A stretch of 49,793 nt of DNA from Pseudomonadota bacterium (GTDB lineage Bacteria; Desulfobacterota; Desulfobacteria; Desulfobacterales; RPRI01): assembly GCA_018817425.1 (NCBI GenBank), contig JAHITX010000099.1, positions 1 to 49,793 on the forward strand, in the 5' to 3' direction. Positions 7,755 to 45,787 of this stretch are shown here, one piece after another. Position 1 is the first letter of the stretch. Every line of letters starts with the position of its first letter. The translations under genes were made by a program, and so were the position numbers. A model generated the notes under the pieces. That model searched no databases. It was given only the letters and a program-made list of their open reading frames with translations, and was not told the origin of the DNA.

Positions 7755-7896
7755 GAGCCAGTTTCAAAACGCCCCATTTTGGCCGATCTCTGCGTTGGGC
7801 TCAAATTTCAATCCTCGAAATACTCTATGTATTTCTGTGGTTGAAATTTTCTCCCGCCTTGAGCTTGACCAAACTGAAACGTTTTGAAAGTGGCTC
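7755..7896 (+). repeat. palindromic GAGCCA element, copy 1 (142 bp)
   Basis: The element starts GAGCCAGTTTCAAAACG and ends ACGTTTTGAAAGTGGCTC; its terminal 28 bp pair with about 4 mismatches. The centre holds ATTTCAA/TTGAAAT arms around CTCGAAATACTCTATGTATTTC. It is nearly identical to copies at 8058, 22245 and 32627, with longer versions at 43052 and 45391. Copies 1 and 2 are in the same orientation, 161 bp apart. Flanking bases (AAGA and ATTG) show no duplication. It lies directly downstream of the O-methyltransferase gene. Confidence 0.9.
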
Positions 7897-8041
7897 ATTG
7901 GATAAATATTTTTATGGTACCTGGCTTTATAACTAGTGGCATTGTTATAGATAACATGGTATATATAATAAATCACTAGCGCATAATACATCGTACGATA
8001 AGGCAAAAATCCGCGGTACCTCATATCGGTTATTATCTAAA

Positions 8042-8058
8042 AGGAGGACATATCAATG
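8042..8058 (+). promoter_or_regulatory. orphaned ribosome-binding site and start codon cut off by a palindromic element
   Basis: AAGGAGGACATATCAATG (8041-8058) is an ideal Shine-Dalgarno plus ATG. However, the G of this ATG is the first base of palindromic element copy 2. Translation from it would enter the element, not the membrane-protein gene starting at 8202. The real gene now has only element sequence upstream. Both ATGs sit in CAATGAG, as expected if the element landed at the original start and duplicated CAAT. Confidence 0.7.
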
Positions 8059-8199
8059 AGCCAGTTTCAAAACGCCCCATTTTGGCCGATCTTGGCGTTG
8101 GGCTTAAATTTCAATCCTCGAAATACTCAATGTATTCCTGCGGTTGAAATTTTCTCCCGCCTTGAGCTTGAACAAACTGAAACGTTTTGGAAGTGGCTC
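8058..8199 (+). repeat. palindromic GAGCCA element, copy 2 (142 bp)
   Basis: Same ends and length as copy 1 (7755-7896), with about ten substitutions. It is flanked by CAAT on the left (8054-8057) and CAAT on the right (8200-8203), consistent with a 4-bp target duplication. It separates a strong ribosome-binding site from the reading frame of the small membrane protein. Confidence 0.9.
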
Positions 8200-8201
8200 C
8201 A

Positions 8202-8606
8202 ATGAGAAGTTTAAAAACAGCTCTATGGATTTGTGCTTCAGGATGTCTGGCAGCCATTCCATTTGTTGTATTGCCATGGGAAATAATTCAAGATCTCTTT
8301 GTTTGGTTTGGGATAGAGCCAATTCCTGATACCCCGCTATTAATTTATTTCTTCAGAGGTGCTTGTGGTATAATTGGATTGATCGGAATTTATTTTATTA
8401 TACTTGCAAGAAATCCTGTAAAGTATGGCCCAATGCTGAATTTGGGAGCTTATGGTTTAATGGCTTTTGGTTTGCTGAGTTTAATTCTTGGATTGAGTCT
8501 TCAAATGTCTCTGAAAATTTATTTGGGAGACGCTATTTTTGGGATAGCGCTTGGGCTTATCGTTGCTATTCTTTCTCGTAGAGCACAAGAAATCTCAAAG
8601 GTGTGA
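8202..8606 (+). CDS. small four-helix membrane protein of unknown function
   Basis: This 134-residue protein starts MRSLKTALWICASGCLA and has about four hydrophobic helices (residues ~5-25, 45-65, 75-98 and 105-125). It has no catalytic motif that I recognise. I start it at the ATG at 8202; an upstream in-frame ATG at 8187 lies inside the palindromic element. Its original ribosome-binding site appears to be at 8042-8047, now cut off by the element, so expression may be low or may depend on translation through the element. A terminator follows at 8611-8638. Confidence 0.65.
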   Translation: MRSLKTALWICASGCLAAIPFVVLPWEIIQDLFVWFGIEPIPDTPLLIYFFRGACGIIGLIGIYFIILARNPVKYGPMLNLGAYGLMAFGLLSLILGLSLQMSLKIYLGDAIFGIALGLIVAILSRRAQEISKV

Positions 8607-42213: not shown

Positions 42214-43053
42214 ATGGAGAGCTATATAGCAATGACCAGTAAAACCCTTAATTGCGGTAATATCGAAGAAAAAAAAGAACGGCTGATTTCAATTTTAAAA
42301 AATTATGATTCACTTGCGATTGCCTTTTCAGGAGGTGTTGACAGCTCCTATTTGCTTGCTTTGTCACATAAAGTTATGGGTAAGAAAGTTTTTGCTATTA
42401 CAGCCATATCACCGGTTCATCCGGCAAGAGAAATTAAATTTGCACAAAAATTTGCAGCAAGTCGTAAGATCAGGCATGTAATCATTAAATCGGACGAGAT
42501 GAGTCTTCCGGAATTTATAGCAAACAACAGAAACAGATGTTATGTATGCAAGAAAATTCTTTTTCCGAAGATGCTTGAGTATGCGGTAAAATCAGGAGTA
42601 AAAGATCTGGTTCATGGTGCAAATGTTGATGATCTCAATGACTTCCGTCCCGGTTTTTCAGCCGCTTCAGAGTCAAAAATTGCAGCTCCCCTGATAGATG
42701 CCGGGCTTTCAAAAAAGGATATACGCCAGCTTTCAAAAAACATGAATCTTGAAACATGGAATAAACCTGCAATGGCATGTCTTGCTACAAGAATACCATA
42801 TGGGACAAGTATTACAGCCGAAATTTTAAATAAGATTGAAGATGCAGAAAATGCTTTAATCGATCTTGGTTTTAGCACCTGCCGTGTCCGTCATCATGGC
42901 GATCTTGCAAGAATCGAGGTGCCTCCTAAAGATTTTAAAAAGATATTAAGCAAAGAAAATATGGAAGCAATCATCAAAACAATAAAAAAGGCAGGTTATT
43001 TATACGTTACAATGGATATTGAAGGCTATATTCAGGGAAGTATGAACAGGTGA
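42214..43053 (+). CDS. larE: LarE-type ATP-dependent sulfur transferase (PP-loop), three-cysteine form
   Basis: The 279-residue protein has the PP-loop SGGVDSS (residues 39-45) and the LarE pattern, with RCYVCKK (Cys109 and Cys112), GANVDDLNDFRPG, and ACLATRIPYG (Cys189). LarE adds sulfur to the pyridinium cofactor precursor of nickel-pincer lactate racemase. Enzymes with three such cysteines are reported to use a [4Fe-4S] cluster as the sulfur carrier, unlike the self-sacrificing one-cysteine type; assignment to the cluster type is inference from the Cys set. No larA, larB or larC is in the window. An ATG at 42232 is an alternative start. The stop codon overlaps palindromic element copy 5. 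Confidence 0.88.
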   Translation: MESYIAMTSKTLNCGNIEEKKERLISILKNYDSLAIAFSGGVDSSYLLALSHKVMGKKVFAITAISPVHPAREIKFAQKFAASRKIRHVIIKSDEMSLPEFIANNRNRCYVCKKILFPKMLEYAVKSGVKDLVHGANVDDLNDFRPGFSAASESKIAAPLIDAGLSKKDIRQLSKNMNLETWNKPAMACLATRIPYGTSITAEILNKIEDAENALIDLGFSTCRVRHHGDLARIEVPPKDFKKILSKENMEAIIKTIKKAGYLYVTMDIEGYIQGSMNR

Positions 43054-43215
43054 GCCAGTTTCAAAACGTCCCATTTTGGCCGATCTCTACGTTGGGTGAA
43101 AATTTCGCACGAAGTGAAGCTTTAGCGCTATCCTCGAAATACTAAATGTATTCCTGTGGTTAAAATTTTCACCCGCCTTGACCTTGACCAAACTGAAACG
43201 TTTTGAAAGTGGCTC
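43052..43215 (+). repeat. palindromic GAGCCA element, copy 5 (164 bp, long form)
   Basis: It has the usual ends but is 22 bp longer. The extra sequence lies in the left inner arm (TTTCGCACGAAGTGAAGC... TAGCGCTATCC). The pairing GGGTGAAAATTT/AAATTTTCACCC shows a T-A pair where copy 4 has C-G. The first two bases of the element are the last two bases of the larE TGA stop. Confidence 0.9.
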
Positions 43216-45390: not shown

Positions 45391-45576
45391 GAGCCACTTT
45401 CAAAACGTTTCAGTTTGGTTAAGCTCAAGGCGGAAGAAAATTTCAACCGCAGGAATACATTTAGTATTTCGAGGATAGCGCTAATGGTTAGCGCTATGCT
45501 TCACTACGTGTCACTTCGTGCGAAATTTGAGCCCAACGCAGAGATCGGCTAAAATGGGGCGTTTTGAAACTGGCTC
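45391..45576 (-). repeat. palindromic GAGCCA element, copy 6 (186 bp, longest form, reversed)
   Basis: It lies in the opposite orientation to the other five: GAGCCACTTTCAAAACG on the left, ACGTTTTGAAACTGGCTC-type right end. Its inner arm holds an enlarged version of the copy 5 insertion, with GATAGCGCTA and TTAGCGCTATGC as a nested inverted repeat and a duplicated ACGTGTCACTTCGTG segment. It ends 75 bp upstream of the symporter gene start. The flanks (TTAT and ATCA) are not duplicated. Confidence 0.9.
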
Positions 45577-45631
45577 ATCAGTTTCTATTTGGACTGACGG
45601 TATAGTTTAACTCCCCATGAAAGTCATTTTT

Positions 45632-45787
45632 CTACATTATCAGCGATTTCATTATTTTGTCAGACACCTTGATTCCCGTTGGATATTCTTTTAAATCTAT
45701 TGCCGCCAGTATTTTCAGACACGCTTCGGTTGTCGTATTTGCTATAAATAAGTTTACAAGTTGCATACGTCCCCGATACTACCGTCA
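45632..45787 (-). pseudogene. C-terminal remnant of an ISAzo13-family transposase
   Basis: The minus-strand frame ending at 45632 reads QLVNLFIANTTTEACLKI, then LAAIDLKEYPTGIKVSDKIM. This matches the C-terminal end of ISAzo13-type (Rhodopirellula-type DDE) transposases, which typically read LI..T.T..GLKV...LD...Y..G.KVSD. Stops interrupt the frame just upstream, and no further transposase sequence was found, so only about 50 codons survive. Confidence 0.6.

Follow-up and report, generated by a model that had tools for sequence, protein, structure and literature searches.

The window analysed here covers positions 1–49,793 of a contig from a bacterium of the order Desulfobacterales (JAHITX010000099.1), and it contains six copies of a short element with 17-nt inverted ends, GAGCCASTTTCAAAACG. 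The second of these copies lies between the Shine–Dalgarno (SD) sequence of a small gene and the ATG of that gene, and the features on either side of it are collected in Table 1. The small gene is present in two of ten genomes of the genus (G000 and G006), and a search of its product found no Pfam match.

Table 1. Features in and around element copy 2
Feature	Position	Strand	Remark
Element copy 1	7755–7896	+	161 bp upstream of copy 2, in the same orientation
Promoter-like TTGTTA-16-TATAAT between copies 1 and 2	7942–7969	+	Weak; two sites found against 1.6 expected in 561 bases
SD sequence AAGGAGG of the small gene	8041–8047	+	−11.6 kcal/mol with the anti-SD; AAGGAGA is the counterpart at the empty site
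CAAT, left copy of the target duplication	8054–8057	+	Direct reading; 4 bp is the rule in the family
49-codon frame from the original ATG through the element	8056–8205	+	Stop TGA (8203–8205) overlaps the gene ATG at 8202
MITE copy 2, 142 bp	8058–8199	+	Predicted single hairpin from end to end
TGG in place of the family-consensus TGA	8188–8190	+	The only stop of the consensus in the 49-codon frame
CAAT, right copy of the target duplication	8200–8203	+	Direct reading
Small gene, 134 aa	8202–8606	+	Hydrophobic sequence, called a membrane protein in an earlier, sequence-only reading; ATG 8202–8204; protein of the ortholog 82% identical

A MITE inserted in the start codon of a small gene

The element is a MITE: it is short, has inverted ends and a target duplication of fixed length, occurs in many copies and carries no transposase. 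The ends of copy 2 (GAGCCAGTTTCAAAACG and CGTTTTGGAAGTGGCTC) agree with those of the five other copies in the window, where 12 matches to the 17-nt ends were counted at up to three mismatches against 0.21 expected, and its own genome holds 412 end motifs at up to one mismatch, compared with a single match for a reversed-pattern control. The stretches around the listed copies were fetched and their ends paired, which gave 96 pairs; one mis-paired nested match was dropped and 95 copies were used, a non-random sample that follows the best BLAST hits and the first-listed pattern matches. Their length is 142–143 bp in 84 cases and 164–188 bp in the other 11. Both flanks are available for 94 copies, 70 from the own genome and 24 from G006, and a perfect 4-bp duplication surrounds 62 of them (42 and 20, respectively), where 300 shuffles gave a mean of 2.1 and a maximum of 7, and this rules out a chance origin of the repeated CAAT; a 5-bp duplication fits three. 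The bases that flank the duplication, C at −5 in 51 and G at +5 in 48 of the 94, suggest a target of the form C-NNNN-G, and copy 2 itself has the G at +5 and a T at −5.

Other identities for the element were considered and set aside. As a protein gene it appears unlikely: its reading frames are open throughout in 13, 2 and 58 of the 95 copies on the forward strand and in 21, 0 and 3 on the reverse, the orientation rule behind these counts having mislabelled at least one copy (L031:3374), and a Pfam search with codons 1–48 of the 49-codon frame gave no match. No known RNA family gave a hit at its gathering threshold in the window, and the one match over the element, at 18.6 bits below the threshold of 37 (E 0.92), was taken as chance. 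Searches found no match to the element among plasmids and no viral contig with its pattern. The window also contains longer variants at 43052–43215 (164 bp) and 45391–45576 (186 bp), whose hairpin encloses 22 or 44 additional bp bearing AGCGCT motifs, and two further repeat pairs, 2666–2921/5108–5491 and 139–219/413–493, which are 94–98% identical and belong to families apart from the MITE. In the draft of G000, contigs 19, 40, 41, 52, 56, 65, 81, 83, 85, 87, 89, 97 and 98 have an element copy at base 1, which indicates that the assembly breaks at the element and that the true copy number is uncertain.

The site without its element is seen at the orthologous locus L003, probably contig 151 of G006, where AAGGAG-AACATGTCT-ATGAGAAG stands immediately before the gene, the site reads TATAAGGAGAACATGTCTATGAGAAGTTTAAA and no match to the end motif was found at up to three mismatches across 6,402 bases. 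Over the 20 nt before the ATG this locus agrees with the left flank of copy 2 at 15 positions, while 13 is the highest agreement among 3,020 other ATGs, each followed by 60 or more open codons, from 41 stretches of the own genome. When the two flanks in the window are joined, their alignment with the G006 locus crosses the junction free of gaps with 20 nt on its left. A zinc-ribbon gene follows the small gene at both loci; farther upstream the two do not align, and a different gene seems to precede the small gene in G006.

The family-wide 4-bp duplication and the empty orthologous site together show that a 142-bp MITE transposed into the start codon of the small gene and duplicated CAAT, leaving an ATG on both edges. 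Misassembly at a repeat is an unlikely explanation, as the ribosome-binding site flank and the gene flank are contiguous in G006. The insertion is known from one genome, the genomes are drafts and the ortholog comes from a metagenome-assembled genome. An earlier, sequence-only reading of the window had proposed the 4-bp duplication, which is matched by the CAAT on both sides and by the rule of the family, and had expected removal of the element and one CAAT to restore normal spacing between the ribosome-binding site and the ATG, which is the arrangement in G006. That reading had looked to an element-free ortholog as the check, and held that one lacking the AAGGAGG region as well would speak against it; the G006 locus has the ribosome-binding site (AAGGAGA), the ATG and the gene, and lacks the element. 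Its figure of about 145 bp for the displacement of the initiation signals is close to the 146 bp found. Of the two CAATGAG that it noted, the first, at the left edge, has as its GAG the element's own first three bases, and in the second, directly behind the element, GAG is part of the gene.

The element family across the order

Matches to the element occur in all ten genomes of the genus, and in 62 of 116 sampled genomes and 52 of 92 genera of the order. The set from other species, built from 60 fetched stretches together with L026–L029, comprises 63 copies, two loci (L124 and L127) having given none. Across the order-wide loci (L026–L029, L077–L096 and L112–L151) a hairpin core of about 142 nt is common and the inverted ends differ. 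Within the 63 copies, all nine exact 4-bp duplications are carried by ends of the GAGCCA type and its close variants, and all 18 exact 5-bp duplications by ends of the GAGACC type and its close variants; three rows have other duplication lengths and 33 have none. For 21 rows of the GAGACC type, which were drawn from part of the 63-copy set and include one mis-paired second match, 5 bp fits six exactly and 15 with at most one mismatch, against shuffled means of 0.2 and 1.0.

Of the 47 copies that are exactly 142 nt long, 45 were aligned with copy 2; the alignment is free of gaps and has a mean column identity of 89%, the lack of gaps following partly from the choice of length and two copies (one from L077, and L089) having been removed by hand. 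In this alignment 21 of 51 hairpin pairs have changed on both sides, against a mean of 9.8 in shuffles that ignore relatedness and none of 500 reaching that number, and 87.0% of alignment cells pair, compared with 27–51% when the structure is slid, a comparison that favours the true register because the structure was taken from copy 2. Ends that match would by themselves produce covariation in the outer helix; the interior is supported by pairs 43–101, 55–89 and 26–117. The structure could act either as RNA or as extruded DNA.

A partner transposase was sought in three families (five DDE_Tnp_1 hits in the own genome, and four DDE_Tnp_ISAZ013 and six DDE_Tnp_1_6 hits in the ten genomes), and none of these 15 hits is enclosed by two good ends in loci of up to 1.5 kb on each side. 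At L070 the only end resemblances are two with four mismatches and no target duplication, and in L073, L104 and L110 the neighbourhood of the hits contains ordinary copies of the element. A partner insertion sequence, which would end in GAGCCASTTTCAAAACG or GAGACCTTTGCAAAACG, may exist beyond the three families searched. A remnant of the C-terminus of an ISAzo13-family transposase (45590–45766 on the reverse strand, E 1.4e-8, one stop) lies 13 bp from element copy 6 in the window; three other remnants of this type have no element ends in their loci.

Translation across the insertion

The original ATG at 8056 is retained with the first base of the element as its G, and is spaced 8 nt from the AAGGAGG. 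The frame that it opens, MSQFQNAPFWPILALG...FWKWLQ, ends in an ATGA overlap with the start of the gene (8202–8205). In the family consensus the same frame meets a single stop, a TGA inside the right-hand terminal repeat and 11 nt upstream of the gene ATG. Position 8190 is A in 93 of the 95 copies and G in two, and the frame is open only in copy 2 and in an intergenic copy (L035:2459), which also account for the only two of 190 copy-by-orientation placements at this site that put a stop on the second ATG. Six random changes made to the consensus open the frame in 7.1% of trials. We regard the open frame in copy 2, which has a chance probability of 2–7% and was noticed post hoc, as suggestive and as no proof of selection. 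The same A to G change is found in L076, outside the 95 copies, and its presence there and in the intergenic L035 copy indicates that it arises without a start-codon setting. Another copy (L032:11924) has two rare variants in common with copy 2 yet retains the A, and copy 2 may accordingly have acquired its G after it was inserted.

The explanation that we consider best, with a probability of about 0.45, is that insertion of the MITE into the start codon was followed by leader translation and a coupled restart at 8202. The native SD sequence and the first ATG would still recruit ribosomes, which would translate the 49-codon leader through the element; the leader would end at the UGA overlapping the second AUG (AUGA), and translation of the intact gene would restart there. 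The A to G change at 8190 would have removed the family stop and moved termination from its place upstream onto the gene ATG itself. An upstream frame with its own SD sequence that ends overlapping a downstream start, as coupling demands, is found here, and the SD energy is −11.6 kcal/mol before ATG 8056 against −4.0 in the 20 nt before 8202. The small gene is moreover intact, with a dN of 0.097 and a dS of 0.309 against its ortholog (NG86) and a dN/dS of 0.31 (NG86) or 0.37 (YN00), a ratio that averages over time including the period before the insertion.

Against coupling stands the predicted hairpin, which begins at the G of the first ATG. Copy 2 is predicted to fold from end to end at −52.1 kcal/mol (z −6.1), with an outer stem that reaches to two bases before ATG 8202 and six tested outer-stem pairs at probabilities of 0.93–1.0; the A to G change leaves the helix intact (U–A to U–G). 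Opening the SD sequence together with 8056 would cost 20.6 kcal/mol, more than at any of 14 control starts (3.7–16.3), the joined empty site (9.6) or the ortholog (11.2). A start at 8202 opened locally would cost 24.2 kcal/mol, and a split footprint with the hairpin kept 8.0. This last value, the lowest of the three, favours a different route, possible if on the unlikely side, in which a ribosome on AAGGAGG starts at AUG 8202 across the looped-out hairpin. By prediction a stable helix does lie between the SD sequence and the AUG, and the effective spacing is a workable 12 nt (10 + 2), which bears on the question, raised in the sequence-only reading, of whether the hairpin brings the ribosome-binding site near 8202; the order-wide covariation described above also speaks for the hairpin, subject to the relatedness among copies that its shuffles ignore and to the structure having come from one of the aligned sequences. 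Split sites can work in phage T4, where, in the portion of the account consulted, structure between SD and AUG shortens the spacing from 22 to 5 nt in gene 38 and from 27 to 11 nt in gene 25 (PMC3014915), effective spacings comparable with the 12 nt predicted at copy 2. The T4 structures absorb only 16–17 nt, however, whereas the modelled structure at copy 2 is a whole 142-nt transposable element in a formerly normal site and may not fit the mRNA path of the ribosome; the energy model leaves out sterics, kinetics and ribosome geometry, and SD bases 8044–8047 are themselves predicted to be paired.

It seems distinctly unlikely that neither route works and that the small gene is silenced or greatly weakened, a pseudogene in waiting. 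A strong hairpin over the old start and a weak SD sequence before the new one would fit such an outcome, as would poor tolerance of the element in genes, to which the placement of 83 of the 95 copies between predicted ORFs (by a rough rule of at least 100 aa) may point, unless that placement reflects an A+T-rich target preference. The gene is nevertheless fully intact although copy 2 differs from the own-genome consensus at six of 142 positions, suggesting that the element did not arrive very recently. We consider it very improbable that a new start inside or beside the element has taken over: the A to G change does make a GGAAG (8189–8193) 8 nt before AUG 8202 and improves the SD energy there from −2.3 to −4.0 kcal/mol, and TTG 8187 and GTG 8193 share the frame of the gene, in an ORF open from 8187 to 8606, but the improved value is weak next to that of the native SD sequence and the local footprint is the costliest to open. 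Leader translation with coupled restart has a slight lead over initiation across the hairpin because of the exact fit of the frame, and both may act. On these models the small gene may still be translatable from its old ribosome-binding site by coupling or loop-out, and the earlier description of a gene cut off from that site is not established, given that the original ATG is kept, that its frame ends on the duplicated ATG and that the predicted hairpin brings the site close.

The layout GGAG-N5–11-ATG followed by an exact element end, a pattern that takes exact ends only, has five matches in the ten genomes, and with a chimeric case (L099) left out only copy 2 has a gene start directly behind the element; at L100 a 212-aa frame begins 46 nt behind it, and at L098 and L101 no downstream frame of note follows. 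The chimeric element (L099, G000:C131:65962) has a left end of the GAGCCAG type and a right end of the GGTCTC type and lies beside GAGGAGG-TTAT-ATG. In 14 of 188 element-strand views a start that opens 60 or more codons lies 0–13 nt behind the element, and copy 2 alone among these has a strong SD sequence in its left flank (−11.6 kcal/mol; the next is −7.2). Another of the 14 is a 164-bp copy (L031:3374–3537, G000 contig 1) in the start codon, with the duplication TATG, of a gene that from its sequence appears epimerase-like. The original ATG there leads through 56 codons across the copy and in frame into the gene, whose orthologs in G006 (76% identical) and G007 (73%) share this ATG as their start, the stretches fetched around them being free of element ends. 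At least two of the 95 copies have thus landed in a start codon, and at both sites the old start can, as read, still give access to the gene. A general rule is opposed by six other insertions near predicted ORF starts, which run into a stop (L014, L034, two in L038, L045 and L048), several of these predicted starts being doubtful. We advance only as a rather doubtful idea that the element is built for self-repair in start codons, the 4-bp duplication re-creating the ATG, the paired ends holding the old ribosome-binding site close and the near-open frame leading to a coupled restart, and that an order-wide hairpin core of about 142 nt swaps its ends, and with them a duplication length of 4 or 5 bp, presumably so as to use different transposases.

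Relation to known elements and wider meaning

In coupling by an ATGA stop–start overlap the upstream frame ends on the downstream start codon. The site of copy 2 differs from the usual case in that its upstream frame consists of the element and the gene's own original start codon. MITEAba12 of Acinetobacter resembles the family of copy 2 in being short and non-autonomous, in its inverted ends and in its target duplications, and it differs in its 9-bp duplication, a length of mostly 113 bp, a weak predicted structure and a proposed parent, ISAba12; the parts of that report consulted mention no element that separates a ribosome-binding site from a duplicated start codon (PMC6382973). The BOX repeats of pneumococci, as presented in the sections consulted, are likewise small and mobile, and provide the genes beside them with stop codons or short frames; they are modular and variable in size, whereas the MITE family is mostly 142–143 bp long and spans many genera with differing ends (PMC3049150). 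Within the partial view of the open-access literature available to us, we recognised no report of an element between an SD sequence and a start codon or of a MITE combined with coupling, and no match among split sites, Desulfobacter repeats or repeats with differing transposases.

Copy 2 is a natural experiment on the fate of a gene, dead or still translatable, once a mobile hairpin separates its Shine–Dalgarno sequence from its start codon, and the spread of a single conserved hairpin core with varying ends through dozens of genera offers a way to ask how a MITE changes its transposase.
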